Assembly: GCA_964019135.1 (NCBI GenBank)
Contig: OZ025248.1
Span: 68,330,119-68,394,118 of the forward strand
Direction of reading: 5' to 3'
DNA from: Arenicola marina
Taxonomy: Eukaryota; Annelida; Polychaeta; Arenicolidae
Length of the DNA: 64,000 nt
A program made the position numbers and the translations under genes. The notes beneath the pieces were generated by a model. The model was not told the origin of the DNA and ran no database searches. It saw only the letters and a program-made list of their open reading frames with translations. How positions within the stretch are numbered: the first letter of the stretch is position 1; the number at the start of each line of letters is the position of its first letter. This document shows positions 1,261 through 55,527 of this stretch, piece by piece.

Positions 1261-1261
1261 C

Positions 1262-4200: not shown

Positions 4201-5216
4201 GTAGAAGTCACCCACCCCTCATCAGTAGAAGTCACGCACCCCTCATCAGTAGAAGTCACCCAACCCTCATCAGTAGAAGTTACCCACCCCGCACCAGTAA
4301 AAGGCACCTACCCCTCATCAGTAGAAGTCACCCACTCCTCATCAGTAGAAGTTACCCACCCCGCACCAGTAAAAGGCACCTACCCCTCATCAGTAGAAGT
4401 CACCCACCTCTCATCAGTAGAAGTCACCCAACCCTCATCAGTAGAAGTCACCCGCCCCTCATCAATAGAAGTCACCCAACCCTCATCAGTAGAAGTCACC
4501 CGCCCCTCATCAATAGAAGTCACCCAACCCTCATCAGTAGAAGTCACCCAACCCTCATCAGTAGAAGTCACCCACCCCTCATCAGTAGAAGTCACCCACC
4601 CCTCATCAGTAGAAGTCACGCACCCCTCATCAGTAGAAGTCACGCACCCCTCATCAGTAGAAGTCACCCGCCCCTCATCAATAGAAGTTACCCACCCCGC
4701 ACCAGTAAAAGGCACCTACCCCTCATCAGTAGAAGTCACGCACCCCTCATCAATAGAAGTCACCCAACCATCATCAGTAGAAGTCACCCAACCCTCATCA
4801 CTAGAAGTCACCCAACCCTCATCAATAGAAGTCACCCAACCATCATCAGTAGAAGTCACCCGCCCCTCATCAATAGAAGTCACCCACCCCTCATCAGTAG
4901 AAGTCACCCGCCCCTCATCAGTAGAAGTCACCCAACCATCATCAGTAGAAGTCACCCACCCCTCATCAATAGAAGTCACCCAACCCTCATCAGTAGAAGT
5001 CACCCGCCCCTCATCAGTAGAAGTCACCCAACCCTCATCAGTAGAAGTCACCCACCCCTCATCAATAGAAGTCACCCAACCCTCATCAGTAGAAGTCACC
5101 CACCCCTCATCAATAGAAGTCACCCAACCCTCATCAGTAGAAGTCACCCACCCCTCATCAGTAGAAGTCACGCACCCCTCATCAGTAGAAGTCACCCAAC
5201 CATCATCAGTAGAAGT
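1262..5216. repeat. 24-bp satellite, about 165 copies, with higher-order structure
   Basis: Tandem units of 24 bp with core CATCAGTAGAAGTCACCC fill almost 4 kb. Variant units carrying CCGCACCAGTAAAAGGCACC are spaced through the array. A rarer variant with AGTAGAAGGCACC recurs at about 2335, 3031 and 3703, that is 696 and 672 bp apart (29 and 28 units), which shows block duplication. A one-base deletion near 4125 shifts phase. The plus strand is open for about 1,000 and 1,359 codons in two frames. Unit-to-unit changes in the PSSVEVTH reading are mostly amino-acid changing (CAC/CAA/CGC/TAC, CCC/TCC, GTA/ATA), which argues against a selected protein. Confidence 0.95.
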
Positions 5217-9358: not shown

Positions 9359-9810
9359 GGTGTGCTTCCAGTTGGACGACTTCCACTTGGACGACACCCC
9401 ATTTTGGTACTTCCAGTTGGACGACTTCCAGTTAGACGACATTATATATATATACGTTAGGTATCGCAAAACAAGCAATTCATATAGATGCATCATGATT
9501 AGTAACGCTATTTGAGAGGTTTGCAGATAAAACTGGGACAGTTTGAAGAATAGTAGCATTTTTTCGGCGCGTCGTCTAAGATTTAGCGTCACTCTGTTGT
9601 TGCCGACAGCCATTGCGTTGGCGTCGTGTTATTCTTACAAAGAGGCGTTAACGACACCTACACCCTTTGATGTTCAAGATGGAATATTGGCTGCCTTCCC
9701 CCGCTTTCACACCTCTTGAATTATACACTTGAGACCTCCAGCTTGTAAGTTAATAATGTTTGATGCGGCTTGTGATTAACATAACGAAATACAATGGAGT
9801 CCTTATTGCA
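9359..9810 (+). mobile_element. Left end of the FLYWCH-type TIR transposon, truncated copy
   Basis: Starts GGTGTG and continues with five 15-bp modules (9365-9439) of type CTTCCAGTTGGACGA, the third degenerate, as in the element at 30502-32583. It then has one copy of the roughly 202-bp sub-repeat (two to three in the full copy) and the shared inner arm ending ...CTTATTGCA. Matching to the full copy continues past the inverted arm into its left interior, so this is a left-end remnant. No right end and no target duplication are visible. It sits inside a 26-bp minisatellite. Confidence 0.85.
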
Positions 9811-11015: not shown

Positions 11016-11575
11016 TGGCTATAACTAGCTACCTGCCCTGTCACGAGCTTGCCTTCGCTTGAAAGGCATCTCCGTTTTGTCGGTGGAAGCCATTATACGA
11101 ATTGCACCATTCCTTTTTCGCACGTTTGGTTCGTCAGGTCGTCGGTCCATTCATTGTGGCTCCTGGCTTCACAGATGACACGCTTAAACTCGGGTAATAG
11201 AACCCCCCCCCCCCCGCCCCCGGCCCCCGGACCTATTCATCAGGTCACCCCATCGTGGTAGAGGATTCAACAGTGTTCAGACACAGCACGCCGGCCAACA
11301 GCACACCTAGCGGGCTAATCACACACTACTACATATTTGGTCTGGTTGGCTGCAAAAACACTGACCTCGAAAAGTGACCGCATAATAAAACCAAAAACCA
11401 TTAACCAAATAAAATTACCACGCAGGTACAAAGCTGTGACTATACTTGACTAGGCGAAGCAATCGCACTGATGACTGACAGACTGCCACATACTGACCTC
11501 GACGGCCAATTTCTGGGTGAATGAAGCGTAACATTAGCATAATTTACCCATTGATGAGTAAATATTAAAGCAATC
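11016..11575. other. Spacer, no gene seen
   Basis: Unique sequence with a C run at about 11203-11215. Nothing else recognised. Confidence 0.5.
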
Positions 11576-11576
11576 T

Positions 11577-14500
11577 GAGGGGGGGGTCAGTGTGACTGAG
11601 GGGTTGGTCAGTGTGACTGAGGGGGCGGGTCACTGTGAGGGGTGGGTCAGTGCGACTGAGGGGGTGGGTCAGTGCGACTGAGGAATGGGTCAGCATGATT
11701 GAGGGGTGGGTCAGTGTGACTGAGGGGTTGGTCAGTGTGACTGAGGGGTTGGTCAGTGTGACTGAGGGGGCGGGTCAGTGTGAGGGGTGGGTCAGTGTGA
11801 CTGAGGAATGGGTCAGCATGATTGAGGGGTGGGTCAGTGTGACTGACGGGGCGGGTCAGTGCGACTGGGGGGCGGGTCAGCGTGAGGAGTGTGTCAGTGT
11901 GACTGAGGGGGTGGGTCAGTGTGACTGAGGAGGCAGGTCAGTGTGACTGAGGGGTGGGTCAGTGTGACTGAGGGGTGGGTCAGTGCGACTGAGGAATGGG
12001 TCAGCATGATTGAGGGGTGGGTCAGTGTGACTGAGGGGTGGGTCAGTGCGACTGAGGAATGGGTCAGCATGATTGAGGGGTGGGTCAGTGTGACTGAGGG
12101 GCGGGTCAGTGAGACTGAGGGGCGGGTCAGTGTGACTGAGGGGTTGGTCAGTGTGACTGAGGGGTGGGTCAGTGTGACTGAGGGGGCGGGTCAGTGTGAC
12201 TGAGGGGCGGGTCAGTGTGACTGAGGGGTGGGTCAGTGTGACTGAGGAATGGGTCAGTGTGACTGAGGGGTGGGTCAGTGTGACTGAGGGGTTGGTCAGT
12301 GTGACTGAGGGGGCGGGTCAGTGTGACTGGGGGGTGGGTCAGCATGATTGAGGGGTGGGTCAGTGTGACTGAGGGGCGGGTCAGTGAGACTGAGGGGGCG
12401 GGTCAGTGTGAGGGGTGGGTCAGTGTGACTGAGGGGTTGGTCAGTGTGACTGAGGGGTGGGTCAGCATGATTGAGGGGTGGGTCAGTGTGACTGAGGGGC
12501 GGGTCAGTGAGACTGAGGGGGCGGGTCAGTGTGAGGGGTGGGTCAGTGTGACTGAGGGGTGGGTCAGTGTGATTGAGGGGTGGGTCAGTGTGACTGAGGG
12601 GTGGGTCAGTGTGACTGAGGGGTGGGTCAGTGTGATTGAGGGGTGGGTCAGTGTGACTGACGGGGCAGGTCAGTGTGACGGGGGGGCGGGTCAGTGTGAG
12701 GAGTGGGTCAGTGTGCCTGACGGGTGGGTCAGTTTGACTGAGGGGTGGGTCAGCATGATTGAGGGGTGGGTCAGTGTGACTGAGGGGTGGGTCAGTGTGA
12801 CTGAGGGGGCGGGTCAGTGTGAGGGGTGGGTCAGTGTGCCTGAGGGGTTGGTCAGTGTGACTGAGGGGGCGGGTCAGTGTGAGGGGTGGGTCAGTGTGAC
12901 TGAGGGGTGGGTCAGTGTGACTGACGGGGCGGGTCAGTGCGACTGGGGGGCGGGTCAGCGTGAGGAGTGTGTCAGTGTGACTGAGGGGGTGGGTCAGTGT
13001 GACTGAGGAGGCAGGTCAGTGTGACTGAGGGGTGGGTCAGTGTGACTGAGGGGTGGGTCAGTGTGACTGAGGGGGCGGGTCACTGTGAGGGGTGGGTCAG
13101 TGTGACTGAGGGGTGGGTCAGTGTGACTGAGGGGTTGGTCAGTGTGACTGAGGGGTGGGTCAGCATGATTGAGGGGTGGGTCAGTGTGACTGAGGGGCGG
13201 GTCAGTGAGACTGAGGGGGCGGGTCAGTGTGAGGGGTGGGTCAGTGTGACTGAGGGGCGGGTCAGTGTGATTGAGGGGTGGGTCAGTGTGATTGAGGGGT
13301 GGGTCAGTGTGACTGAGGGGTGGGTCAGTGTGACTGAGGGGTGGGTCAGTGTGATTGAGGGGTGGGTCAGTGTGACTGACGGGGCAGGTCAGTGTGACGG
13401 GGGGGCGGGTCAGTGTGAGGAGTGGGTCAGTGTGCCTGACGGGTGGGTCAGTTTGACTGAGGGGTGGGTCAGCATGATTGAGGGGTGGGTCAGTGTGACT
13501 GAGGGGCGGGTCAGTGAGACTGAGGGGGCGGGTCAGTGTGAGGGGTGGGTCAGTGTGCCTGAGGGGTGGGTCAGTGTGATTGAGGGGTGGGTCAGTGTGA
13601 CTGACGGGGCAGGTCAGTGTGACGGGGGGGCGGGTCAGTGTGAGGAGTGGGTCAGTGTGCCTGACGGGTGGGTCAGTTTGACTGAGGGGTGGGTCAGTGT
13701 GACTGAGGGGTGGGTCAGTGTGACTGACGGGTGGGTCAGTGTGACTGAGGAATGGGTCAGCATGATTGAGGGGTGGGTCAGTGTGACTGAGGAGCGGGTC
13801 AGTGTGACTGAGGGGGCGGGTCAGTGTGACTGGGAGGCGGGTCAGTGTGACTGGGGGGCGGGTCAGTGTGACTGAGGGGGCGGGTCAGTGTGACTGAGGG
13901 GGCAGGTCAGTGTGACTGAGGGGGCGGGTCAGTGTGACTGAGGGGGCGGGTCAGTGTGACTGAGGGGTCTGTCAGTGTGACTGAAGGGGTTGGTCAGTGT
14001 GACTGAGGGGCGGGTCAGTGTGACTGGGGGGCGGGTCAGTGTGAGGGGTGGGTCAGTGTGACTGAGGGGTTGGTCAGTGTGACTGAGGGGTTGGTCAGTG
14101 TGACTGAGGGGTGGGTCAGTGTGACTGAGGGGGCGGGTCAGTGTGACGGAGGGGTGGGTCAGTGTGACCGAGGGGGCGAGTCAGTGTGACTGAGGGGTGG
14201 GTCAGTGTGACTGAGGGGACGGTTCAGTGTGACTGAGGGGTGGGTCAGTGTGACTGAGGGGTTGGTCAGTGTGACTGAGGGGGCGGGTCACTGTGAGGGG
14301 TGGGTCAGTGCGACTGAGGGGCGGGTCAGTGTGACTGAGGGGTGGATCAGTGTGACTGGGGGGCGGGTCAGTGTGACTGGGGGGTGGGTCAGCATGATTG
14401 AGGGGTGGATCAGTGTGACTGAGGGGCGGGTCAGTGAGACTGAGGGGGCGGGTCAGTGTGAGGGGTGGGTCAGTGTGCCTGAGGGGTGGGTCAGTGTGAT

Positions 14501-15770
14501 TGAGGGGTGGGTCAGTGTGACTGACGGGGCAGGTCAGTGTGACGGGGGGGCGGGTCAGTGTGAGGAGTGGGTCAGTGTGCCTGACGGGTGGGTCAGTTTG
14601 ACTGAGGGGTGGGTCAGTGTGACTGAGGGGTGGGTCAGTGTGACTGACGGGTGGGTCAGTGTGACTGACGGGTGGGTCAGTGTGACTGAGGAATGGGTCA
14701 GCATGATTGAGGGGTGGGTCAGTGTGACTGAGGAGCGGGTCAGTGTGACTGAGGGGGCGGGTCAGTGTGACTGGGAGGCGGGTCAGTGTGACTGGGGGGC
14801 GGGTCAGTGTGACTGAGGGGGCGGGTCAGTGTGACTGAGGGGGCAGGTCAGTGTGACTGAGGGGGCGGGTCAGTGTGACTGAGGGGGCGGGTCAGTGTGA
14901 CTGAGGGGTCTGTCAGTGTGACTGAAGGGGGGGGTCAGTGTGACTGAGGGGCAGGTCAGTGTGACTGAGGGGCGGGTCAGTGTGAGGGGTGGGTCAGTGT
15001 GACTGAGGGGGCGGGTCAGTGTGACTGAGGGGTCTGTCAGTGTGACTGAGGGGACGGTTCAGTGTGACTGAGGGGTGGGTCAGTGTGACTGAGGGGTGGG
15101 TCAGTGTGACTGAGGGGTGGGTCAGTGTGACTGGGGGGTGGGTCAGTGTGACTGAGGGGTGGGTCAGTGTGACTGAGGGGTGGGTCAGTGTGACTGAGGG
15201 GTGGGTCAGTGTGACTGAGGGGGCGGGTCAGTGTGACGGAGGGGTGGGTCAGTGTGACCGAGGGGGCGAGTCAGTGTGACTGAGGGGTGGGTCAGTGTGA
15301 CTGAGGGGACGGTTCAGTGTGACTGAGGGGTGGGTCAGTGTGACTGAGGGGTGGGTCAGTGTGACTGAGGGGGCGGGTCACTGTGAGGGGTGGGTCAGTG
15401 CGACTGAGGGGCGGGTCAGTGTGACTGAGGGGTGGATCAGTGTGACTGGGGGGCGGGTCAGTGTGACTGGGGGGCGGGTCAGTGTGACTGAGGGGCGGGT
15501 CAGTGTGACTGGGGGCGGGTCAGTGTGAGGGGTGGATCAGTGTGACTGAGGGGCGGGTCAGTGGGACTGAGGGGTGGATCAGTATGACTTGGGGGCGGGT
15601 CAGTGTGAGGGGTGGGTCAGTGTGACTGGGGGGCGGGTCAGTGTGACTGGGGGGCGGGTCAGTTTGAGGGGTGGGTCACTGTGACTGGGTGGCGGGTCAG
15701 TGTGACTGAGGGGGCAGGTCAGTGTGACTGAGGGGTGGGTCTGCATGATTGAACGGTGGGTCAGCGTATC
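11577..15770 (+). repeat. 21-bp satellite, about 200 copies, with nested block duplications
   Basis: About 4.2 kb of a 21-bp unit with core GGGTCAGTGTGACTGAGG. Distinct variant units mark internal duplications: the string GTGTGCCTGACGGGTGGG recurs at about 12711, 13430, 13655 and 14575, and the run around GAATGGGTCAGCATGATT near 13750 reappears about 0.94 kb later. Frames reading as WVSVTEG repeats stay open in long pieces but break wherever a unit is 20 or 22 bp. Not called as a gene. Confidence 0.96.
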
Positions 15771-28456: not shown

Positions 28457-28762
28457 TCAAAGACCCACTCCAAATATTAAATTTGAAAGGTATGCAATAA
28501 CATTTAGGGAGAGTAGCGCATGTTCTGTGCAAGAGAAGCCCAAGCATAGCGCAGAGGAGTTGAGGGCATCCCTTGCTGATCCCAAGTAATTTATTAAAGA
28601 AATTTCAGTTTTCAGCTGAGTAAAATGCTGGCACCTGGTGAAACACTGATATATTGTCTCGACGAAATCGTCGCAATTCGGGCAGTCGGGGGTAGTCCTG
28701 ATTCTATAATGGTTTAAATATGTGTTTACAGTTTCCATTCCTTCATCATTTACACAACGCAA
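28457..28762 (-). pseudogene. LINE C-terminal fragment with CPxC zinc-knuckle region
   Basis: The minus-strand frame contains RIRTTPDCPNCDDFVETIYQ followed by Cys/His-containing sequence. This resembles the C-terminal Cys-x2-Cys...His...Cys segment of animal non-LTR retrotransposon ORF2 proteins (compare the SESIEHL-type segment at 48839). Only about 100 codons remain, with no RT domain attached. Assignment is by motif style and moderate in certainty. Confidence 0.6.
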
Positions 28763-30370: not shown

Positions 30371-30501
30371 AAAGCACAGGAATGTGTATTCGAGACAGGG
30401 GGCAGGAATGTGTATTCGAGGCAGAGGGATAGCAATGTGTATTCGAGACAGGGGGCAGGAATGTGTATTCGAGACAAGGGGCAGGAATGTGTATTCGAGA
30501 C
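30371..30501 (+). repeat. 25-26-bp minisatellite, left part
   Basis: Five units with core AGGAATGTGTATTCGAGAC. The array stops at the transposon end (30502) and resumes at 32584. Confidence 0.9.
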
Positions 30502-30588
30502 GGTGTGCTTCCAGTTGGACGACTTCCACTTGGACGACACCCCATTTTGGTACTTCTAGTTGGACGACTTCCAGTTAGACGACAATAT

Positions 30589-31165
30589 ATATAAATACGT
30601 TAGGTATCGCAAAATAAGCAATTCATATAGATGCATTATGATTAGTAAGACTATTTGAGAGGTTTGCAGATAAAATGGGACAGTTTGAAGAATAGTACAA
30701 GCAATTTTTCGGCGTGTCGTCTACGACTTAACTTGACTGTGTTGTGGCCGACCGCCATTGCGTTGGCGTCGTGTTACATCATATATTATATATAAATGCG
30801 TTTTGGTATCACAATATACTCAATTCATATAGATGCATCTTGATTAGTATGACTATTTGAGAGGTGTGCAGATAAAATTAGGACAGTTTGAAGAATAGTA
30901 CAACCATTTTTTCGGCGTGTCGTCTAAGATTTAGGGTCACTCTGTTGTTGCGGTCGCCATTGCGTTGGCGTCGTGTTACATCATATATTATATATAAATG
31001 CGTTTTGGTATCACAATTTAATCAATTCATATAGATGCATCATGATTAGTATGACTATCTGAGAAGTTTGCAGATAAAAATTGGACAGTTTGAAGAATAG
31101 TAACACTTTTTTCGGCGTGTCGTCTAAGATTTAGCGTCACTCTGTTGATGCGGCCGCAATTGCGT
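30589..31165 (+). repeat. About 202-bp sub-repeat, three tandem copies in the left arm
   Basis: Units start near 30589, 30790 and 30992. Each runs from ATATAAATGCG through ATTCATATAGATGCAT, GGACAGTTTGAAGAATAG and TTTTTCGGCGTGTCGTCTA to GCGTTGGCGTCGTGTTA. Confidence 0.9.
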
Positions 31166-31640
31166 TGGTGTCGTGTTATTCTTACAAAGAGGTGTGAACG
31201 ACACCTGCTCCTTTGATGTTCAAGATGGAATATTGGCGGCCTTTCCGCTTTCACACCTCTTGACTTAAACACTTGAGACCTCCAGTTTGTAAGTTAATAA
31301 TGTTTGATGTGGCTTGTGATTAACATAACGGAATACAATTGAGTTCTTATTGCACTTTTTATTTGACAAAGACCATTGATAAACATATATTTCAATTGTG
31401 AAAACGTATGTGGCACAAACAAATCTATCTAATTCACACCTCCAGCTTTGAAGTGTATTTTCCTAATTGCACTCAACTGTCAACATCATTTGCGTATGTC
31501 CATGTCATCGCTTTATAAAAAACCCTGTGATTGCAATTGTCAACAATTGACCTGGCTTGTGATATGCCTGTGCGGATCGATGCATCTTACTGAATACATA
31601 ATCTTGAGCACAGCATCTTGCACATCGTCATCCTAAAAGA

Positions 31641-31649
31641 GTATATAAA
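31641..31649 (+). promoter_or_regulatory. TATA box upstream of the FLYWCH frame
   Basis: TATATAAAG lies about 45 bp before the ATG at 31694 inside the transposon, the expected place for a core promoter. Motif-based. Confidence 0.5.
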
Positions 31650-31693
31650 GGGTTGTTTATCAGATGGAAATCATCTGTCGCCATATATTTACT

Positions 31694-31960
31694 ATGGAGG
31701 ACGCAACTGCAACCATTGTGAAGAAGCATCGCGGGGTGAATTTGCTGTACAAAGATTATCGCCAAGCAAGCAGCATTTGCGGTGTGTTCTTCGTGGATGC
31801 CCTGGTCGACTGCTAACTACTGGCGAAGGCAGTAGTGTGAATGTGCTTTCCGCGAAGGATCATAGCCATATTCCAGATGAAGAAATATTGGCGTCCACAG
31901 CCGCAAAGTCTGACCTCTGTCAGCTAGCAGCAGAAGATTTGGTTACACCGCTCATGTATG
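31694..31960 (+). pseudogene. Broken FLYWCH zinc-finger N-terminus of a transposase
   Basis: From the ATG at 31694 the frame reads KKHRGVNLLYKDYR, the aromatic N-terminal half of a FLYWCH finger. The matching second half lies one frame over: KQHLRCVLRGCPGRLLTT, then AKDHSHIPDEE, which gives the spaced Cys, Cys and His-x-His ligands. The usual Trp before the first Cys is Leu here, and the linker between halves is short, so a small deletion with frameshift lies near 31763. After the finger an alpha-helical-looking stretch runs directly into the right inverted arm. No catalytic DDE core is present, so this copy could only move with help from another. Confidence 0.7.
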
Positions 31961-32104
31961 TTAATCACAAGCCACATCAAACATTATTAACTTACAAGCT
32001 GAAGGTCCCAAGTGTATATTCAAGAGGTGTGAAAGCGGAAAGGCCGCCAATATTCCATCTTGAACATCAAAGGAGCAGGTGTCGTTCACACCTCTTTGTA
32101 AGAA

Positions 32105-32500
32105 TAACACGACGCCAACGCAATGGCGGTCGGCAACAACAGAGTGACGCTAAATCTTAGACGACACGCCGAAAAAATGGTTTTACTATTCTTCAAACTG
32201 TCCCAATTTTATCTGCAAACCTCTCAAATAGTCATACTAATCATGATGCATCTATATGAATTGAGTATATTGTGATACCAAAACGCATTTATATATAATA
32301 TATGATGTAACACGACGCCAACGCAATGGCGGTCGGCCACAACACAGTGAAGCTAAATCGTAGACGACACGCCGAAAACATGCTTGTACCTTTCTTCAAA
32401 CTGTCCTAATTTTATCTGCAAAATTCTCAAATAGTCACACTAACCATGATGCATCGATATGAATTCCTTATATCACGATACCTGACCTATTTATATATAA
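32105..32500 (-). repeat. About 202-bp sub-repeat, two copies in the right arm
   Basis: Inverted counterparts of the left-arm sub-repeats, joined near 32295 by ATATATAATATATGATGTAA. The outer copy is the more diverged. Confidence 0.85.
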
Positions 32501-32583
32501 TGTCGTCTAACTGGAAGTCGTCCAACTGGAAGTACCAAAATGGGGTGTCGTCCAAGTGGAAGTCGTCCAACTGGAAGTAATCC

Positions 32584-33040
32584 TTCGAGACATGGGCAGG
32601 AATGTGTATTCTGGACAGGGGGCAGGAATGTATATTCGAGAGTGGGGGGTAGGAAAGTGTATTCGAGACAGGGGACAGGAATGTGTATTCGAGACAGGGG
32701 GACAGAAATGTGTATTCGAGACAGGGGGCAGGAATGTGTATTCGATACAGAGAGCAGAAATCTGTATTCGAGACAGGGACAGGAATGCGTATTCGAGACA
32801 CGGGGCAGGAATGTATTCTCGAGACAGGGGTGTAGGAATGTGTATTCGAGACATGGGACAGGAATGTGTATTCGAGACAGGGGCAGGAATGTGTATTCGA
32901 AACAGGGGGCAGGAATGTGTATTCGAGACAGGGGGACAGAAATGTGTATTCGAGACAGGGGCAGGAATGTGTATTCGAGACTTGGGGACAGGAATGTGTA
33001 TTCGAGACCGGGGGCGGGAATGTGTATTCGAGACATGAAA
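32584..33040 (+). repeat. 25-26-bp minisatellite, right part
   Basis: About 18 units with core AGGAATGTGTATTCGAGAC and variable G runs (24-27 bp). It continues the array interrupted at 30501. Confidence 0.92.
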
Positions 33041-36885: not shown

Positions 36886-38765
36886 CAGCCCCAATAGGCC
36901 GCCAGCCCCAATAGGCAAACAGCCCAGAAAGCCACTGGCCCCAGAAAGCCTTCGGCCCCAACAAGCATCCGGGCGCCAAAAAGGCATCGGGCCCCAAATG
37001 GCATCCGTGCCTTTTCCCCCAAATGGCATCCGTGCCCTTTCCCCCTTGACTCTTGCTCAGTGCCCCACACGGCATCCATGCCCTTTCCCCCTTGCCCCTT
37101 GCTCAGTGCCCCAAATGGCATCCGTGCCCTTTCCCCCTTGCCCTTGCTCAGTGCCCAAATGGCATCCATGCCCTTTCCCCCTTGCCCCTTGCTCAGTGCC
37201 CAAATGGCATCCGTGCCCTTTCCCCCTTGCCCCTTGCTCAGTGCCCCAAACGGCATCCATGCCCTTTCCCCCTTGCCCCTTGCTCAGTGCCCCAAATGGC
37301 ATCCGTGCCCTTTCCCCTTGCCCCTTGCTCAGTGCCCCAAATGGCATCCGTGTCCTTTCCCCTTGCCCCTTGCCCAGTGCCCAAATGGCATCCGTGTCCT
37401 TTCCCCCTTGCCCCTTGCTCAGCGCCCCAACTGGCATCCGTGCCCTTTCCCCCTTGCCCCTTGCTCAGTGCCCCAAATGGCATCCGTGCCCTTTCCCCCT
37501 TGCCCTTGCTCAGTGCCCCAAATGGCATCCGTGTCCTTTCCCCTTGCCCTTGCTCAGTGCCCCAACTGGCATCCGTGCCCTTTCCCCCTTGCCCCTTGCT
37601 CAGTGCCCCAAACGGCATCCATGCCCTTTCCCCCTTGCCCCTTGCCCAGTGCCCCAAATGGCATCCGTGTCCTTTCCCCTTGCCCTTGCCCAGTGCCCCA
37701 AATGGCATCCGTGTCCTTTCCCCCTTGCCCCTTGCTCAGCGCCCCAACTGGCATCCGTGCCCTTTCCCCCTTGCCCCTTGCTCAGTGCCCCAACTGGCAT
37801 CCGTGTCCTTTCCCCCTTGCCCCTTGCCCAGTGCCCCAAATGGCATCCGTGTCCTTTCCCCTTGCCCCTTGCTCAGCGCCCCAACTGCATCCGTGCCCTT
37901 TCCCCCTTGCCCCTTGCTCAGTGCCCCAACTGGCAACCGTGTCCTTTCCCCCTTGCCCCTTGCCCAGTGCGCCAAATAGCATCCGTGTCCTTCCCCCTTG
38001 CCCCTTGCTCAGCGCCCCAACTGGCATCCGTGCCCTTTCCCCTTGCCCCTTGCTCAGTGCCCCAAATGGCATCCGTGCCCTTTCCCCCTTGCCCTTGCTC
38101 AGTGCCCAAAATGGCATCCGTGTCCTTTCCCTCTTGCCCCTTGCTCAGTGCCCAACTGGCATCCGTGCCCTTTCCCCCTTGCCCTTGCTCAGTGCCCCAA
38201 ACGGCATCCATGCCCTTTCCCCTTGCCCCTTGCCAGTGCCCCAAATGGCATCGTGTCCTTTCCCCCTTGCCCCTTGCTCAGCGCCCCAACTGGCATCCGT
38301 GCCCTTTCCCCCTTGCCCCTTGCTCAGTGCTTCAAATGGCATCTGTTCCCTTTCCCCCTTGCCCCTTGCTCAGTGCCCCAAATGGCATCCGTGCCCTTTC
38401 CCCAAAATGCATCCGTGCCCTCTCCCCCTTGCCCCTTGCTCAGCGCCCCAAATGGCATCCGTGCCCTTTCCCCCTTGCCCCTTGCTCAATGCCCCAAATG
38501 ACATCCGTGTCCTTTCCCCCTTGCCCTTGCTCAATGCCCCAAATGACATCCGTGTCCTTTCCCCCTTGCCCCTTGCTCAGTGCCCCAAATGGCATCCGTG
38601 CCCTTTCCCCCTTGCCCCTTGCTCAGTGCCCCAAATGACATCCGTGTCCTTTCCCCTTGCCCCTTGCTCAGTGCCCCAAACGGCATCCATGCCCTTTCCC
38701 CCTTGCCCCTTGCTCAGTGCCTCAAAAGGCCTCTGGCCCCAACAGGCTGCCGGCTCCGATGGCTG
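36886..38765 (+). repeat. 46-bp pyrimidine-rich satellite, about 39 copies
   Basis: The unit is about 46 bp (44-46 in practice) and is built from AAATGGCATCCGTGCCC, a TTTCCCCCTTG block and CCCCTTGCTCAGTGCC. Both edges (36886-36990 and 38730-38765) carry a related, more degenerate CCCCAA(C/T)AGGC unit, so older diverged copies flank a younger core. The plus strand is about three-quarters pyrimidine. Because 46 is not a multiple of three, the very long frames in all phases come from the lack of stop words in the unit. Confidence 0.95.
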
Positions 38766-40238: not shown

Positions 40239-41425
40239 TCACTCTAGTGCAAGAATATGTATGTTGTATTTTTCTAATTGACGCGGACAATGGTTACACA
40301 TGTAAAGTAGTTGTCGATCTCCAGTGAAACTACTGAAGGTAGGGCATCGACTATGTACATTATACAACCAGTCATTCCAAGATTCGTTATAAAAGTTCAA
40401 ATACAAAATGAAGCTCTTCACAAAATGAAGCTCTTCACAAAATGAAGCTCTTCACAAAATGAAGCTCTTCACAAAATGAAGCTCTTCACAAAATAAACAT
40501 ACACGTTCCTCTCGCCATGTGTTGTTGAATCGCCCCGTTTCCACTCTCAATGGTAACACTTCCATCCTTAATTGCGCTACGACAGACCGCTCGCCTCCTG
40601 TGTTCGTGTAACGTAGTCTTCAACGTTGCCATTAAAGTTAAACTTTTTTTTATAAAATTGTAGCTTTGGCTTTTTCACTAGAGTTTGTCCCCATTCCTTT
40701 TCTTGCACTTGGAACATTCGTAATTTTAATTCGGTCACATCACGGAATAAGTTATTGTCGTAGACATCCTGGTACCCACATTGAGAGAGAATATTGCGAA
40801 CCTGTGTAGACCAGCTATAGCCAGAAAAACTCCAATCGTAGACATAATTAAACATTACTTTCTTAAGGCGTTCCTGTGGGAGGGTAATGAAGCTATTCCA
40901 TAGCCTGGTCATTTCAATCCACCTTAGATACTTATGGGGTCTAAGCCACCCCATGTCTCCGTAGAATGCCTCGATCGGAGTAAACTGATGAACATCAAGA
41001 AAGATTCTCATTGCGCGGTGATGAACAGTGTGAGGCTTTGAAGAACTTTCGTAACCCCATACCCCAGCGGTGCAATTCATAACCGGTAAAATACAGCTTT
41101 CATACAATTTGGTGTATGTTTCATATCTCATACAGCCATTTGCCTTATACACGCTCGTCACATACCCTAGAGCTCGACCGGCCGATTCGGCAAGAAGTGA
41201 TGCATTTTCTTTGTACTTACTAAGCTGATTAAACATAATTCTCAACTACTTATAATTACCAACATAAGTGAGCTCATCATGACCTACGTGGAATTTGAAC
41301 TCGCTTTGCTAAATACGCGAGGGTCGAAAATGCATGACCTTGGTTTTATCCGTATTTAGCATTATCCGCCATTTGCAACACCACAAATGTTGGTGCCAGC
41401 TGGGGGCAGTCTCAGTGGGAAGGAG
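40239..41425 (-). pseudogene. LINE ORF2 3' part, disrupted by tandem repeats
   Basis: The minus strand starts near 41400 with WRIMLNTDKTKVMHFR and HDELTYVGNYK (late RT domain, two in-frame stops). The intact 222-codon piece 41245-40577 follows and includes LAESAGRALGYVTSVYK, YESCILPVMNCTAGVWGY and HHRAMRIFLDVHQFTPIEAF, typical post-RT blocks of animal non-LTR elements. Downstream, REERVCLFC then EELHF (about 40500-40480) is the start of the C-terminal zinc-knuckle, but a 17-bp unit within it is repeated five times. The true C-terminus resumes at 40404-40239 (CPTFSSFTGDRQLLYM). The RT upstream of 41425 is missing and replaced by the 25-bp satellite. Confidence 0.85.
40405..40489 (-). repeat. 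17-bp tandem repeat inside the LINE zinc-knuckle, 5 exact copies
   Basis: AAAATGAAGCTCTTCAC repeats five times without a mismatch at exactly 17 bp. On the minus strand one unit encodes part of the CEELHFV zinc-knuckle segment; expansion breaks the frame. The perfect identity indicates a recent event. Confidence 0.97.
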
Positions 41426-41441
41426 AAAACACGAGAAGCGG

Positions 41442-44400
41442 CGACGCAGCAGCAGTGGCGTCACACCGACGCAGCAGCAGTGGCGTCACACCGACGCAGC
41501 AGCAGTGGCGTCACACCGACGCAGCAGCAGTGGCGTCACACCGACGCAGCAGCAGTGGCACCACACCGACGCAGCAGCAGTGGCGCCACACGGACGCAGC
41601 AGCAGTGGCACCACACGGAAGCAGCAACAGTGGCGCCACACCGACGCAGCAGCAGTGGCGCCACACCGACGCAACAGCAGTGGCGCCACACGGAAGCAGC
41701 AGCAGTGGCGCCACACCGACGCAGCAGCAGTGGCGCCACACCAACGCAGCAGCCGTGGCGCCACACCGCCGCAGCAGCAGTGGCACCACACGGAAGCAGC
41801 AGCAGTGGCGCCACACCGACGCAGCAGCAGTGGCGCCACACCAACGCAGCAGCCGTGGCGCCACACCGCCGCAGCAGCAGTGGCACCACACGGAAGCAGC
41901 AGCCGTGGCGCCACACCGACGCAACAGCCGTGGCGCCACACCGCCGCAGCAGCAGTGGCACCACACGGAAGCAGCAGCAGTGGCGCCACACCGACGCAGC
42001 AGCAGTGGCACCACACCGACGCAGCAGCAGTGGCGCCACACCGACGCAGCAGCAGTGGCGCCACACCGACGCAGCAGCAGTGGCGCTTCACCGACGCAAC
42101 AGCAGTGGCGCCACACCGACGCAGCAGCAGTGGCGCTACACCGACGCAGCAGCAGTGGCGCCACACCAACGCAGCAGCCGCGGCGCCACACCGACGCAGC
42201 AGCAGTGGCACCACACGGAAGCAGCAGCAGTGGCGCCACACCAACGCAGCAGCCGTGGCGCCACACCGCCGCAGCAGCAGTGGCACCACACGGAAGCAGC
42301 AGCAGTGGCGCCACACCGACGCAGCAGCAGTGGCGTCACACCAACGCAGCAGCCGTGGCGCCACACCGCCGCAGCAGCAGTGGCACCACACGGAAGCAGC
42401 AGCCGTGGCGCCACACCGACGCAACAGCCGTGGCGCCACACCGCCGCAGCAGCAGTGGCACCACACGGAAGCAGCAGCAGTGGCACCACACCGACGCAGC
42501 AGCAGTGGCACCACACCGACGCAGCAGCAGTGGCGCCACACCGACGCAGCAGCAGTGGCGCCACACCGACGCAGCAGCAGTGGCGCTACACCGACGCAAC
42601 AGCAGTGGCGCCACACCGACGCAGCAGCAGTGGCGCTACACCGACGCAGCAACAGTGGCGCCACACCAACGCAGCAGCCGTGGCGCCACACCGACGCAGC
42701 AGCAGTGGCACCACACGGAAGCAGCAGCAGTGGCGCCACACCAACGCAGCAGCCGTGGCGCCACACCGCCGCAGCAGCAGTGGCACCACACGGAAGCAGC
42801 AGCAGTGGCGCCACACCGACGCAGCAGCAGTGGCGCCACACCAACGCCGCAGCCGTGGCGCCACACCGCCGCAGCAGCAGTGGCACCACACGGAAGCAGC
42901 AGCAGTGGCGCCACACCGACGCAGCAGCAGTGGCGTCACACCGACGCAGCAGCAGTGGCGCCACACCGACGCAGCAGCAGTGGCACCACACCGACGCAGC
43001 AGCCGTGGCGCCACACCGCCGCAGCAGCAGTGGCACCACACCGACGCAGCAGCAGTGGCACCACACCGACGCAACAGCAGTGGCGCCACACCGACGCAAC
43101 AGCAGTGGCGCCACACCGACGCAGCAGCCGTGGCGCCACACCGCCGCAGCAGCAGTGGCACCACACCGACGGAGCAGCAGTGGCGCCACACCGACGCAGC
43201 AGCAGTGGCGCTACACCGACGCAGCAGCCGTGGCGCCACACCGACGCAGCAGCAGTGGCACCACACCGACGCAATAGCAATGGCGCCACACCGACGCAGA
43301 AGCAGTGGCACCACACGGAAGCAGCAGCAGTGGCGCCACACCAACGCAGCAGCCGTGGCGCCACACCGACGCAGAAGCAGTGGCACCACACGGAAGCAGC
43401 AGCAGTGGCGCCACACCGACGCAGAAGCAGTGGCGTCACACCAACGCCGCAGCCGTGGCACCACACGGAAGCAGCAGCAGTGGCGTCACACCGACGCAGC
43501 AGCAGTGGCACCACACCGACGGAGCAGCAGTGGCGCCACACCGACGCAGCAGCAGTGGCGCTACACCGACGCCGCAGCCGTGGCGTCACACCGACGCAGC
43601 AGCCGTGGCACCACACGGAAGCAGCAGCAGTGGCGTCACACCGACGCAGCAGCAGTGGCACCACACCGACGGAGCAGCAGTGGCGCCACACCGACGCAGC
43701 AGCAGTGGCGCTACACCGACGCAGCAGCCGTGGCGCCACACCGACGCAGCAGCAGTGGCGCTACACCGACGCAGCAGCAGTGGCACCACACCGACGGAGC
43801 AGCAGTGGCGCCACACCGACGCAGCAGCAGTGGCGCTACACCGACGCAGCAGCAGTGGCACCACACCGACGGAGCAGCAGTGGCGCCACACCGACGCAGC
43901 AGCCGTGGCGCCACACCGACGCAGCAGCCGTGGCGCCACACCGCCGCAGAAGCAGTGGCACCACACCGACGGAGCAGCAGTGGCGCCACACCGACGCAGC
44001 AGCAGTGGCGCTACACCGACGCAGCAGCCGTGGCGCCACACCGACGCAGCAGCAGTGGCACCACACCGGCGCAATAGCCGTGGCGCCACACCGACGCAGA
44101 AGCAGTGGCACCACACGGAAGCAGCAGCAGTGGCGCCACACCGACGCAGAAGCAGTGGCGTCACACCAACGCAGCAGCAGTGGCACCACACGGAAGCAGC
44201 AGCAGTGGCGTCACACCGACGCAGCAGCAGTGGCACCACACGGAAGCAGCAGCAGTGGCGCCACACTGACGCAGCGGCAGTGGCGCCACACTGACGCAGC
44301 GGCAGTGGCGCCACTACGACGCAGCAGCAGTGGCACCACACGGAAGCAGCAGCAGTGGCGTCACACCGACGCAGCAGCAGTGGCGTCACACCGACGCAGC

Positions 44401-44548
44401 AGCAGTGGCGCCACACCGACGCAGCAGCAGTGGCGCCACACCGACGCAGCAGCAGTGGCGCCACACCGACGCAACAGCCGTGGCGTAACACCGACGCAGA
44501 AGCAGTTGCGTCACACCGACGCAATAGCAGTTGCGCCACACCGCCAGC
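41442..44548 (+). repeat. 25-bp satellite, about 124 copies, with palindromic core
   Basis: The unit is 25 bp with core GCAGCAGCAGTGGCGCCAC. GTGGCGCCAC is a perfect 10-bp palindrome; common variants are GTGGCACCAC, GTGGCGTCAC and GTGGCGCTAC. Variant units with CGGAAGCAG, CCAACGCAG or CCGCCGCAG alternate in larger blocks. As 25 is not a multiple of three, each frame has a 75-bp period, and all six frames stay open for hundreds of codons. No codon-level constraint is evident. Confidence 0.96.
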
Positions 44549-49854: not shown

Positions 49855-50568
49855 CGGCCACTGTAAATCCGGGCATTCTACATCCGGACATTCTACATCC
49901 GGGCATTCTACATCCGGCCACTGTACATCCGGGCACTGTACATCCAGCCACTGTAAATCCGGGCATTCTACATCCGGGAATTCTCCATCCGGGAATTCTA
50001 CATCCAGGCATTCTACATCCGGCCACTGTACATCCGGGCATTCTACATCCGGCCACTGTACATCCGGGCACTGTACATCCAGCCACTGTAAATCCGGGCA
50101 TTCTACATCCGAAGATTCTACATCCGGTCATTCTACATCCGGCCACTGTACATCCGAGCACTGTACATCCGGCCACTATAAATCCGGGCATTCTACATCC
50201 GGGAATTCTACATACGGGAATTTTACATCCAGGCATTCTACATCCGGCCACTGTACATCCGGGCATTCTACATCCGGCCACTGTACATCCGGGCATTCTA
50301 CATCCGGGCACTGTATATCCTGGCATTCTACATCTGGGCATTCTGCATCCGGGCATTCTACATCCGGGCATTCTACGTCCGGGCATTCTACATCCGGGCA
50401 TTCTACGTCCGGGCATTCTACATCCGGGCTTTCTACATCCGGGCACTGTACATCTGGGCATTCTACATCCGGGCCCTGTACATCCGGGCATCTACATCCG
50501 GGCATTCTACATCCGGACATTCTACGTCCGGGCATTCTACATTCAGGCATTCTACATCCGAGCATTCG
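49855..50568 (+). repeat. 15-bp minisatellite, about 47 copies
   Basis: The unit ACATCCGGGCATTCT and variants (ACATCCGGCCACTGT, AAATCCGGGCATTCT) run for about 710 bp. The paralogous arrays at 52533 and 54697 have only about 13-14 units. On the minus strand one frame reads CPDVE repeats. Confidence 0.96.
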
Positions 50569-50731
50569 GTGTGCGCTTGTGGCGAGGGAGGTCTCAGTCG
50601 GGCGCCCCACCTGGCGGCCGCTGCATCCACAACTCTGTTCCCAGGTGTGAATTGGCCTCAGGTAACACGCCCCGATCTTCAGCTAGGAAGCAACGTACCA
50701 CCACTTATACATCATGTTGTCGTGGACTTAC

Positions 50732-50847
50732 GGCCAAGCATGTTGGTCAGGTAACACAGGGCGTCGGAGCCGCTTCCAATCTTCGAAGAGGTCGAAGTTG
50801 GACCATTGTGTTTCCGGGCTATAACGGCGGGTGACTCCGCCAGCCAT
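50732..50847 (-). CDS. Candidate first coding exon, triplication copy 1
   Basis: The minus strand starts ATG GCT GGC GGA in good context (GCG before, G after) and is open for 38 codons (includes YSPETQWSNFDLFEDWK). It ends GCTTGGCC at a consensus donor GTAAGTCC. The product is unknown to me. Across the three copies four positions differ in these 116 nt: three are synonymous and one is Leu to Ile, while the overlapping plus-strand frame suffers non-synonymous changes at the same sites. Upstream on the minus strand there is an ATTGG (CCAAT box) but no TATA box. Copy 1 may be broken downstream because its minisatellite is out of frame. Confidence 0.35.
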
Positions 50848-51127
50848 CGCCTTGTTCACTGCGTCACAGCACGGCAAAATGAATCCACACATAGGTCTAT
50901 GGATCTCTCTAAAACACTCGCGTCACATCAAAAGAGGCACTGAACAACCAATCATACAGATGGCGAGGAGGCCATTTTGCGTATTGCGAGGGCGTATTGT
51001 AAATGGGTTTTCTCCTCACTCTCTCTCGTTCAAACGAGATAACATGATTTTGCATCAGTCTAACTACAGGTTAGTGCCCTCGGACGTCTGCAATAAACAT
51101 TTATAAACATCATATGCAAGAAAGCAA

Positions 51128-51770
51128 ATTTATTTGCTTGCAAAAACGACTACGGTCGACGAACGTTCGAGAAGGTTTCATAGTTATTTGCAGAGTTATA
51201 ACCACCAATTTTTCATAAAACGATGTAAAATAAAAGTGAGGACAATTCTACCTTTTGTAAAGCCGCAGCTGAGTCAATCGAGCATTTGGTTCATTAATGT
51301 CCCCTTGTTAATGAAATCTGGAATTCTTTTGTGAATTGGGTCGAAGGTAGCTCTAGTATAGAGATCAACAAGTTTATCACTCTCAGTTGTTTTGTTAGGC
51401 ATAACAAATATCTTTCCGTGCAAGTGTAAAAGAGGGTTCTCCTTCCATACGTGATATCCCTAAATTGATAAGATGTTACGATCAAATCGAAAAACATATC
51501 GTAGCCCATAATGAACATCTTGGAAACAACTTATTTGTAAATAAATGACATTGTATAATTTCAGCTCTCTGAACTACCTTGGTTTTTATTTCTTTTTAAT
51601 GTGTTCACATACCAAAGACATTTTGTATGGTTTGATAATGGCCAGCTGTATTCTTCTTGTGTTTGTGTGACATAAAACGGTCATAATTGGAAATAAATAA
51701 GAAAAAACAACAACACAGAGAGGTTGTCAGCGGAGACGGATCATGAGAACGTGAAGACTTGGGTTTTAAC
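51128..51770 (+). pseudogene. LINE 3' fragment, triplication copy 2
   Basis: Same LINE C-terminal region as 48839-49330, frameshifted (CKIK, then the SIEHL and NEIWNSFVNWVEGS blocks in different frames). It extends about 80 bp longer in the middle than copy 1 and ends near the GTCAGCGGAGACGGATCATG string. Confidence 0.75.
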
Positions 51771-52480
51771 GCCCCCCGCCATCTGATGTCAATGTTAAAT
51801 GACCAGTGAGCAATAAATATGAAGTGCCTAACCCACCATAGGAGTTGAAATCAGGTGACCATGGTTACGTAAGAAACACGTGCAGGGTGCCGAGAGAGTA
51901 AAAGTATGGAATGACAATGACCAATAATACAATGGCATTACGAGTGTACTGCTCTGTAATTCCCGCCAACAAATGAAATACCTTGAATTATTCACGAAAT
52001 CAGGACAGGGGTGAGGGCGATCTTTCGAGGTTTCGTAGCGTAACTGTAGCTTCTGGTGTGAATTGATGCGGTGTCATACACATCCATATCATTTCTCGTT
52101 TGTAAAAACATCGCGAGGCAACATGTTATTTCAGATATTATTCATTCAATAATTATTTCGTGTTTTATCCATAACCCGCAACATATGTGGTGCCAGGCGT
52201 ATAGGCGCGCATTGCCCACTCGGAGAAAGGCCACACAAATGGAGAAGCATGTAAGCGATAATCGAAGCATGTAGTACTTACTTAGGCAGTCGTGGTTTAT
52301 TACTGTTAACCAGAGGACAATATCTGCATGGACCCGTAGGTTTCTTGCGGGATTCAGGCGATTACGGGTGGGGGCAGGTGCTTACATTAACGACACCAGT
52401 TTCACCCCCGGGGTTTCACCATATAATTTCCGGGTATTATGTTACCCAGGGTGCTAAGGAACCGTACCTTTATACGTGCG

Positions 52481-53012
52481 TCAAGGGCTGGAAAGCTTCA
52501 AACCAAGGGCTTCAAACGTAACACCTAACGGCCATTGTACATCCGGCCATTGTACATCCGGGAATTCTACATCCGGGCATTCTACATCCGGGCATCTTAC
52601 ATCCGGGCAGTCTACATCCGGCCACTGTACATCTGAGCATTCTACAACCGGACACTGTATATCCGGGCATTTTACATTTAGGCATTCTACATCCGGACAT
52701 TCTACATCCGGGCATTCTACATCCGGGCATTCGGTGTGCGCTTGTGGCGAGGGAGGTCTCAGTCGGGCGCCCCACCTGGCGGCCGCTGCATCCACAACTC
52801 TGTTCCCAGGTGTGAATTGGCCTCAGGTAACACGCCCCGATCTTCAGCTAGGAAGCAACGTACCACCACTTATACATCATGTTGTCGTGGACTTACGGCC
52901 AAGCATGTTGGTCAGGTAATACAGGGCGTCGGAGCCGCTTCCAATCTTCGAAGAGGTCGAAGTTGGACCATTGTGTTTCCGGGCTATAACGGCGGGTGAC
53001 TCCGCCAGCCAT
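52481..53012 (-). CDS. Candidate two-exon gene, triplication copy 2
   Basis: Exon A is 53012-52897 (ATG, 38 codons plus two bases, donor GTAAGTCC). A possible exon B begins at 52799 after CACACCTGGGAACAG and stays open to a stop at 52481. The join keeps frame and predicts 144 residues: an N-terminal WSNFDLFEDWK region, an Ala/Arg/Pro linker, then about 13 pentapeptides of CPDVE type encoded by the 15-bp minisatellite, ending LKLSSP. The acceptor has a weak pyrimidine tract, and changes between copies 2 and 3 in exon B are mostly replacing, so exon B is much less certain than exon A. I do not recognise the protein. Confidence 0.3.
52533..52735 (+). repeat. 15-bp minisatellite, about 13 copies (copy 2)
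   Basis: Same unit as 49855-50568 at the same place in the duplicated block. Confidence 0.95.
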
Positions 53013-53288
53013 CGCCTTGTTCACTGCGTCACAGCACGGCAAAATGAATCCACACATAGGTCTATGGATCTCTCTAAAACACTCGCGTCACATCAAAAGA
53101 GGCACTGAACAACCAATCATACAGATGGCGAGGAGGCCATTGTGCGTATTGTGAGGGCGTATTGTAAATGGGTTTTCTCCCCACTCTCTCTCGTTCAAAC
53201 AAGATAACATGATTTTTCATCAGTCTAACTACAGGTTAGTGCCCTCGGACGTCTGCAATAAACATTTATAAACATCATATGCAAGAAA

Positions 53289-53935
53289 GCAAATTTATTT
53301 GCTTGCAAAAACGACTACGGTCGACGAACGTTCGAGAAGGTTTCATAGTTATTTGCAGAGTTATAACCACCAATTTTTCATAAAACGATGTAAAATAAAA
53401 GTGAGGACAATTCTACCTTTTGTAAAGCCGCAGCTGAGTCAATCGAGCATTTGGTTCATTATTGTCCCCTTGTTAATGAAATCTGGAATTCTTTTGTGAA
53501 TTGGGTCGAAGGTAGCTCTAGTATAGAGATCAACAAGTTTATCACTCTCAGTTGTTTTGTTAGGCATAACAAATATCTTTCCGTGCAAGTGTAAAAGAGG
53601 GTTCTCCTTCCATACGTGATATCCCTAAATTGATAAGATGTTACGATCAAATCGAAAAACATATCGTAGCCCATAATGAACATCTTGGAAACAACTTATT
53701 TGTAAATAAATGACATTGTATAATTTCAGCTCTCTGAACTACCTTGGTTTTTATTTGTTTTTAATGTGTTCACATACCAAAGACATTTTGTATGGTTTGA
53801 TAATGGCCAGCTGTATTCTTCTTGTGTTTGTGTGACATAAAACGGTCATAATTGGAAATAAATAAGAAAAAACAACAACACAGAGAGGTTGTCAGCGGAG
53901 GCGGATCATGAGAACGTGAAGACTTGGGTTTTAAC
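53289..53935 (+). pseudogene. LINE 3' fragment, triplication copy 3
   Basis: Almost identical to 51128-51770 (offset 2,164 bp). A few substitutions only. Confidence 0.75.
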
Positions 53936-54644
53936 GCCCCCCGCCATCTGATGTCAATGTTAAATGACCAGTGAGCAATAAATATGAAGTGCCTAACCCA
54001 CCATAGGAGTTGAAATCAGGTGACCATGGTTACGTAAGAAACACGTGCAGGGTGCCGAGAGAGTAAAAGTATGGAATGACAATGACCAATAATACAATGG
54101 CATTACGAGTGTACTGCTCTGTAATTCCCGCCAACAAATGAAATACCTTGAATTATTCACGAAATCAGGACACGGCTGAGGGCGATCTTTCGAGGTTTCG
54201 TAGCGTAACTGTAGCTTCTGGTATGAATTGATGCGGTGTAATACACATCCATATCATTTCTCGTTTGTAAAAACATCGCGAGGCAACATGTTATTTCATA
54301 TATTATTCATTCAATAATTATTTCGTGTTTTATCCATAACCCGCAACATATGTGGTGCCAGGCGTATAGGCGCGCATTGCCCACTCGGAGAAAGGCCACA
54401 CAAATGGAGAAGCATGTAAGCGATAATCGAAGCATGTAGTACTTACTTAGGCAGTCGTGGTTTATTACTGTTAACCAGAGGACAATATCTGCATGGACCC
54501 GTAGGTTTCTTGCGGGATTCAGGCGATTACGGGTGGGGGCAGGTGGTTACATTAACGACACCAGTTTCACCCCGGGGTTTCACCATATAATTTCCGGGTA
54601 TTATGTTACCCAGGGTGCTAAGGAACCGTACCTTTATACGTGCG

Positions 54645-55176
54645 TCAAGGGCTGGAAAGCTTCAAACCAAGGGCTTCAAACGTAACACCTAACGGCCATT
54701 GTACATCCGGCCATTGTACATCCGGGAATTCTACATCCGGGCATTCTACATCCGGGCATCTTACATCCGGGCAGTCTACATCCGGCCACTGTACATCTGA
54801 GCATTCTACAACCGGACACTGTATATCCGGGCATTCTACATTCAGGCATTCTACATCCGGACATTCTACATCCGAGCATTCTACATCCGGGCATTCGGTG
54901 TGCGCTTGTGGCGAGGGAGGTCTCAGTCGGGCGCCCCACCTGGCGGCCGCTGCATCCACAACTCTGTTCCCAGGTTTGAATTGGCCTCAGGTAACACGCC
55001 CCGATCTTCAGCTAGGAAGCAACGTACCACCACTTATACATCATGTTGTCGTGGACTTACGGCCACGCATGTTGGTCAGGTAATACAGGGCGTCGGATCC
55101 GCTTCCAATCTTCGAAGAGGTCGAAGTTGGACCATTGTGTTTCCGGGCTATAACGGCGGGTGACTCCACCAGCCAT
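54645..55176 (-). CDS. Candidate two-exon gene, triplication copy 3
   Basis: Same structure as 52481-53012: exon A 55176-55061, possible exon B 54963-54645, 144 residues predicted. Differences in exon A from the other copies: GGT for GGC, ATC for CTC (Leu to Ile), GCG for GCT. Upstream about 115 bp is missing relative to copies 1 and 2, including sequence next to the CCAAT-like motif, so its promoter may differ. Confidence 0.3.
54697..54899 (+). repeat. 15-bp minisatellite, about 13 copies (copy 3)
   Basis: Same unit and length as in copy 2. Confidence 0.95.
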
Positions 55177-55527
55177 CGCCTTGTTCACTGCGTCACACCA
55201 CGGCAAAATGCATCCACAGATAGGTCTATAAAACAAGCGCGTCACATCAAAAGAGGCACAAAAAACCAATCACACGGGTTAGTGCTCTCGGAAGTCTGCA
55301 ATAAACATTTGTAAACATCATGTTTCGTTTTCGACCCCGAGAACACCAGAAGCGGCGAGAGCGCATCGATTCCAAAGAAATGATGCAAGAGACGAAATAA
55401 CGGTTAATCAGCGGTGCGCGACCTGAGGAACCACACAGGACGGCCTATTGAGTCCTGTTGTCACTCGTTGTCACGGTAAATATAGTGGAGAGTGTCCAAT
55501 AAAGACTAGTACCATGTATGTAACGTA

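Follow-up and report, generated by a model that had tools for sequence, protein, structure and literature searches.

A Foldback-type transposon family of probable Mutator affinity in the annelid Arenicola marina combines unlike tips with bodies in both orientations

The window, a stretch of 64,000 nucleotides of the Arenicola marina assembly (contig OZ025248.1, positions 68,330,119 to 68,394,118 of the forward strand), holds at 30502-32583 a complete insertion of 2082 bp with a GGTGTG tip at its left, which is in all likelihood a non-autonomous copy of an annelid family of cut-and-paste DNA transposons of the Mutator superfamily (MULEs) and of the Foldback type. Judged by its sequence, the family is one with defined ends, 8-bp target-site duplications, asymmetric tips (GGTGTG at one end, GGATTA or GGAATA at the other), near-constant 75-bp blocks, variable arms and cores, and bodies in both orientations. 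We tentatively read it, with confidence somewhat short of even, as a two-ended 'flip-flop' transposon that may need one GGTGTG and one GGAWTA tip, both fixed in place, in which everything between the mirrored module blocks may invert by recombination between the arms and whose left tip may need little beyond its hexamer. The unlike tips stay paired despite the near-identical 75-bp blocks that adjoin them, and this makes the reason for asymmetric MULE tips testable.

Results

The insertion in the window was delimited by its tips and by an 8-bp direct repeat, TTCGAGAC, which flanks it exactly as a target-site duplication (30494-30501 on the left, 32584-32591 on the right; 9 bp give no match). 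Another copy in the genome, L037 (2108 bp), has the same structure and is 98.99% identical to it over 2078 aligned bases. From the left, on the plus strand, the element consists of the GGTGTG tip (30502-30507), a block of five 15-bp modules of which the third, CACCCCATTTTGGTA, is distinct (30508-30582), the arm units L1 (outer, 30586-30786), L2 (30787-30988) and L3 (inner, 30989-31178), and an inner arm without tandem units (31179-31327). The right side, on the minus strand, is made up of an inner arm that is an inverted match to the left one (31957-32104), the arm units R2 (inner, 32105-32297) and R1 (outer, 32298-32499), a further block of five 15-bp modules (32503-32577) and a tip that reads GGATTA inward (32578-32583). 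The count of ~202-bp units given in the earlier note, three on the left and two on the right, was thus borne out.

Between the arms, on the plus strand, lie a remnant of the transposase N-terminus in frame 2 (31694-31762; residues 1-23 of the transposase frame of the copy L022, 95.7% identical) and a remnant of a FLYWCH finger in frame 1 (31753-31953; residues 28-94 of that frame, 91% identical). The frameshifted FLYWCH finger that had been proposed is therefore present, split over two frames, and since it sits between the inverted arms it does not belong to a host gene outside them. Downstream of it, at a deletion boundary, the copy lacks the rest of the L022 gene, the MULE domain included; because only the frameshifted FLYWCH remnant was kept, the copy is non-autonomous. 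A TATA box had also been noted and is there, as TATATAAA at 31642-31649 on the plus strand, but all 23 other copies compared, found by an exact string upstream of it (the core-bearing L009 and L029 fall outside that match), read TATATTAG; the box looks private to the window copy and is not supported as a promoter of the family.

A second copy in the window, at 9359-9810 on the plus strand, retains the left tip, five modules, one unit and the inner arm. Its single ~202-bp unit agrees with the earlier description, and the copy is truncated, its right part and right end having been lost. It adjoins another 26-bp minisatellite, so that both copies in the window lie in or beside 26-bp arrays, as would be expected of an element that prefers minisatellites. 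Across the genome, however, a tandem array spans only 4 of 24 sites with exact duplications, compared to 392 of 1500 random points (26%) in 10-kb loci; minisatellite targeting is not supported by this comparison, and we regard it as very unlikely.

We took a census of the family over the 867-Mb assembly (762 contigs), from which all copies derive. The COX1 on contig C762 of this assembly (15,942 bp) points to an annelid: among the candidates scored, those with the most words in common, its best match is Pilargis wolfi (92% over 98%), and other annelids, many of them Phyllodocida, come next. Searched through the whole genome with at most one mismatch, 35-nt patterns matched 92 tips of the GGTGTG type and 99 of the GGWWTA type, and reversed control patterns of the same length, searched in the same way, gave 0 matches. 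The left 79 bases used as a query had at least 41 matches, all but one at 99-100% (40 of 279 candidates scored). Forty loci (L009-L048) were taken, 38 by their left end, which covers every listed match of that query outside the window, and 2 by a transposase match, and made 42 copies together with the two in the window, 32 of them two-ended and 10 single-ended. The single-ended copies, which stand outside the counts below, are L010, L018, L020, L023, L025, L026, L035, L038, L048 and the copy at 9359; according to the census L035 has a right tip at 3677 bp, beyond the sequence span compared, and L048 was covered for 2.9 kb only. The right end of L034 lies at 323 bp and that of the two-ended L019 at 291 bp, both with an exact duplication.

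An exact 8-bp duplication, read from the flanks of the insertions, was found in 26 of the 32 two-ended copies and a duplication with one mismatch in two (L017, L046), while four had none (L030, L036, L043 and the 2.8-kb copy L040). A 9-bp duplication fitted 0 of the 31 two-ended copies tested. L013 and L014 (C12:30.55 and 30.43 Mb) have the same flanks and the same duplication, which indicates a segmental duplication or a retained haplotype; exact 8-bp duplications thus number 25 in 31 independent copies. Two of the checks proposed at the outset, consistent termini and a defined duplication length, came out in favor of a transposon: ends and target duplications agree across copies, and the length is 8 bp. 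Beyond the host, a search of IMG/VR viral contigs for a relative gave 12 pattern stretches, 0 of them confirmed.

At both termini the module pattern and the alignment confirmed six bases followed by five 15-bp modules, and the pattern (at most two mismatches) matched 12 times in the window against 0.13 expected. The ends had been called mirrored to the base. This holds for 74 of the 75 module bases but not for the tips, where three of six bases differ: the two 81-bp ends of the window copy show 4 differences, three in the tip (GGTGTG versus GGATTA) and one in module 4. The description of the third module as degenerate was wrong; in an alignment of the ends of 19 copies (L014, L034 and L036 left out), CACCCCATTTTGGTA was unchanged in all 19 left ends and in 17 of the 19 right ends, so that it is a conserved, distinct 15-mer as constant as the other modules. 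Four of the five modules carry a TCCA-N2-TRGA dyad. Among the same 19 copies, mean pairwise identity was 99.9% in the left modules, a figure ascertained by the query as the copies were collected by their left end, and 98.9% in the right modules. It was 92.1% in the left and 89.0% in the right outer unit, and 83.5% (left) and 65.8% (right) over the 171 bases that follow toward the center, figures reduced by deletions and by non-homologous stretches. L041 and L010 have six pattern-matching modules instead of four at the GGTGTG end, and module number is accordingly not strictly five.

The coding capacity of the family was best seen in L022 (2761 bp), which has the family's tips and an exact 8-bp duplication. 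From an ATG it carries a frame of 351 residues with FLYWCH and MULE (DDE) domains, followed by a stop. A Pfam scan of this frame alone, up to the stop, found PF04500 FLYWCH at residues 14-66 (E 6.8e-7) and PF10551 MULE at residues 177-272 (E 4.4e-12), both over the curated cut-off, and no further family at E up to 1. L009, L039, L040 and L041 match the frame over all 351 residues at 91-97% identity. Thus, the proposal of a Mutator-like transposon with a FLYWCH finger held, with a FLYWCH-MULE frame between the same ends and four long copies that match it in full length. Altogether the marks of the Mutator superfamily were found: a MULE/DDE domain between the same ends, a duplication within 8-11 bp, and long terminal inverted repeats, the arms of L022 (7-505 versus 2755-2241) being 90.3% identical and those of the window copy longer. 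By its domains, L022 also has the N-terminal FLYWCH plus MULE arrangement of Phantom elements, and the composite inverted ends, tandem sub-repeats and variable arm length of Foldback elements are present in the modules and in unit numbers of 1+1, 1+2 and 3+2 (left plus right).

The hAT and P superfamilies also make 8-bp duplications. The duplications of 26 of the 32 copies would therefore suit an element of either superfamily with an unrelated FLYWCH fragment inside. Against such an origin, which we consider extremely improbable, L022 joins FLYWCH and MULE in one frame between the same tips and an exact duplication, the four long copies match that frame over its full span, no other Pfam family was matched by it at E up to 1 (in particular, a P-type transposase with THAP, as in Galileo, was absent from the L022 frame up to the stop), and duplications of 8-10 bp are also printed for Phantom elements in the available text of the MULE survey (PMC6446971). 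We therefore keep to the Mutator assignment.

The full-length copy with a DDE core that the earlier note had called for was found in part, as L022 has both domains but a stop directly behind its frame. Behind the stop follows a 100-aa segment with RTNNHQEGWHHRLN, which by eye resembles RTNNKLEGWHNSLN and RTNNHVEGWHSKLN of relatives. The transposase had at least 117 matches in its own genome (116 of 153 candidates scored), and none of the 116 scored was an uninterrupted full-length transposase: each of the five full-span matches at 91% or more (L022, L039, L040, L041, L009) carries a stop, which lies within the frame in all but L022, where it follows immediately. An uninterrupted frame, the mark of an autonomous element, was thus not seen among the scored matches, and the window copy lacks the MULE domain. 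Other matches in the genome, at about 27-40% identity and with long open frames, point by their sequence to more distant families. A search of 5.8 billion proteins gave 31 relatives with E values of 0.001 or less, the top one sharing 47% identity across 98% of the query; named relatives come from Nucella, Trichinella and Rotaria, and a protein of Nucella lapillus is 48% identical over 78% of the L022 query. Among solved structures the best match, a FLYWCH domain, had an E of 0.073.

We analyzed how the tips combine by pairing neighboring tips in facing orientation that are at most 6 kb apart. This rule gave 54 facing pairs, comprising 53 L-R pairs (one of them with a GGGGTG tip), one R-R pair and no L-L pair, and left 83 of 191 tips unpaired. 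Since descent alone keeps tips paired, this shows a lasting asymmetry and not yet a requirement. The R-R pair (L050, C14:15737954) has no common target duplication and was rejected as a single element; we read this one locus as two one-armed insertions. Its right part (616-971) is a one-armed piece of 356 bp that starts at an internal GGTGTG of an arm, where there is no module, and has an exact 8-bp duplication, GAAGCGTA, on both sides. The left part has a 7-bp match in its flanks, and the two pieces are about 50 bp apart. Two pattern searches for further internal GGTGTG ends counted 115 and 139 candidate matches.

The body of the element was found in both orientations relative to the tips. 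Among 31 copies examined, 5 had no core; in the 26 core-bearing copies the 5' end of the gene lies by the GGTGTG tip in 10 (orientation A, L013 and L014 with their common flanks included) and by the other tip in 16 (orientation B). The clearest case is a pair of copies of 1259 bp each: L017 is 98.73% identical to the reverse complement of L044 without a gap, whereas in the other sense identity is 80.43% with 150 gap columns, and the tips of L017 are not inverted. Of the 16 differences between the two, 7 fall within the seven terminal bases. In L044 both arms read the same between 7 and 232, and reciprocal arm markers begin at 233; a single crossover within the identical part would suffice to turn one copy into the other. 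Furthermore, the units of L017 fall with the units of the opposite arm in a tree, with moderate support. A gapless reverse complement between tips that stayed in place points to recombination between the inverted arms. The right tip of L017, GGGATA, is atypical; the copy also has a poly-C flank and the one mismatch in its duplication.

The two orientations could instead be two old lineages, with the tips of L017 gained otherwise, for example by conversion of both from another copy. Orientation does track tip type, with GGATTA in 9 of 10 A copies and GGAATA in 15 of 16 B copies, and a tree built from the 275-bp core (25 rows, without L045, whose core is short) calls for 2 orientation changes (bootstrap 2-3) with weak support, its starred branches forcing only 1 change. 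The case for more than one flip consequently rests mainly on L017 and L044. This pair, gapless at 98.7%, calls for one crossover where conversion of both tips takes two events, and the window copy and L037 have orientation A yet group among B cores (89/92). We consider two unflipped lineages unlikely and prefer inversion by recombination between the arms.

The number of ~200-bp units was scored in 29 copies (L014 and L034 left out, as in the unit tree): 15 had 1+1, ten had 1+2, two had 3+2 (the window copy and L037), one had 0+1 and one had 1+0. The ten 1+2 copies are on average 98.9% alike, and they have one core deletion junction in common with the 1+1 copies L012, L027 and L044 and with the 1+0 copy L032. 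Despite this common junction, then, unit number changed once or more within the deletion subfamily. The idea that arm length changes by unequal exchange of sub-repeats is thus upheld insofar as unit number varies, also within that subfamily; otherwise, unit number is inherited by subfamily. In its strict form, with arms that evolve independently and change length only by unequal exchange between neighboring direct units, the idea would account for units that are tandem and variable in number even among copies with one core junction, and one such duplication is inferred between two alleles of the Drosophila element Tetris in the available text of its description (PMC4079207). In the unit tree, however, the L2 and L3 units of the window copy and of L037 are placed together with the R2 units of this pair (83/96, not starred), and R2 of the ten 1+2 copies falls in the same weakly supported fork (78/93). 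Units would thus appear to have moved from one inverted arm to the other, and we consider the strict form rather unlikely. Copying between inverted arms accounts for the additional left units of the window copy no worse than does unequal exchange between direct repeats.

Discussion

A mechanism that would join these observations begins at the modules, which, with the dyad in four of five, form a predicted binding array for transposase, bound by the FLYWCH-MULE protein of a relative. The transposase would pair two non-equivalent tips, which would then be cut and inserted with an 8-bp stagger. The window copy would have moved in trans, by means of an autonomous relative, after its MULE domain was lost, and deletion derivatives that keep their ends may spread in the same way. 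The extra ~200-bp units may have originated as right-arm duplications that were copied into the left arm during recombination between the inverted arms, and the same recombination would flip the body. The flipped, near-identical pair suggests that recombination between long inverted arms is frequent enough to be observed, and near-identical copies, with 54 facing tip pairs, are enough to ask what Foldback ends do.

The Phantom subclass of MULEs was reportedly treated by Marquez and Pritham in 2010. In the available text of the MULE survey, Phantom elements have a FLYWCH, a SWIM or no finger, terminal inverted repeats of 18-613 bp, 8-10 bp duplications and animal hosts; the annelid family resembles them in its finger, its duplication length and its animal host, and there is no annelid in the survey's Phantom row (PMC6446971). 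Going by what is available of their descriptions, which also set it apart, its closest counterparts are Tm1 of nematodes, Muta1 and Muta5 of mosquitoes and, for its big arm repeats, Tetris of flies.

Tm1 (Mutator/Foldback, Meloidogyne) is described with a FLYWCH plus MULE transposase, many non-autonomous copies, asymmetric 7-bp tips A1 and A2, generally one per end, a tandem end motif of ~14 bp in 1-9 units, and duplications of 8-10 bp, most commonly 9 (PMC3169594). The annelid family is like Tm1 in its domains, asymmetric tips, tandem end motifs and many non-autonomous copies. Unlike Tm1, it shows a duplication of 8 bp in 26 of 32 copies and one of 9 bp in none of 31, and it mostly has five modules with a distinct third; the ~200-bp arm units and the inversion of the body are not described in the Tm1 text available.

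Muta1 and Muta5, MULEs of Aedes aegypti, are reported in the accessible part of their description to have a terminal motif of 10 or 8 bp followed by tandem 12- or 15-bp subterminal repeats in 9 copies, 8 or 9 bp duplications and a large number of derivatives; Muta1, which is classed as a type 2 Foldback element, transposes in yeast (PMC5225508). The tip motif with tandem subterminal repeats and the many derivatives recur in the annelid family, which differs in its mostly five modules with an odd third one and in its long arms with ~200-bp units.

For Tetris, a Foldback element of Drosophila virilis, the text at hand gives long inverted arms built of ~220-bp tandem units whose number varies and differs between two alleles, 8-9 bp duplications in complete copies, units that also form satellite arrays, and no transposase found (PMC4079207). 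The long inverted arms with variable tandem units are alike, whereas the annelid family has the FLYWCH-MULE frame of L022.

Galileo, a Drosophila element of the P superfamily, is described with arms that change in length by tandem repeats and by exchange from arm to arm and from copy to copy, central regions that are joined to the arms of other subfamilies, a P-type transposase and 7-bp duplications (PMC3573991). The modes of arm change, through tandem repeats and through exchange between arms and copies, are similar. The annelid family differs in the FLYWCH-MULE frame of L022, which matched no P-type transposase, and in its 8-bp duplications, and an inversion of the body relative to the tips is not in the portion of the Galileo description available.

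Nearly every trait is thus already in print across the available descriptions of Tm1, Muta1/Muta5, Tetris, Galileo and the MULE survey, and the annelid family is an addition to the FLYWCH-MULE Foldback elements. Among the matches listed for literature on annelid MULEs, titles and openings of abstracts do not name the family, and among those listed for Foldback papers the phrase 'inversion of the internal' is absent.

Other features of the window

Large minisatellite arrays lie at 1260-5216, 11575-15764, 37017-38730, 41442-44543 and 57579-60134, and the long open reading frames found over these five arrays in several frames are probably spurious. Two stretches on the minus strand were noted by eye as possible pieces of non-LTR retrotransposons, one at 28457-28762 (zf-RVT at E 0.034, below the cut-off) and one at 40577-41245 (no Pfam match to E 0.1). 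At 50501-55272 there is a tandem duplication of ~2.6 kb with 98% identity and an offset of 2165 bp. A third copy is partial (454 bp, 93%). The duplication contains paired open reading frames at 52476 and 54640.
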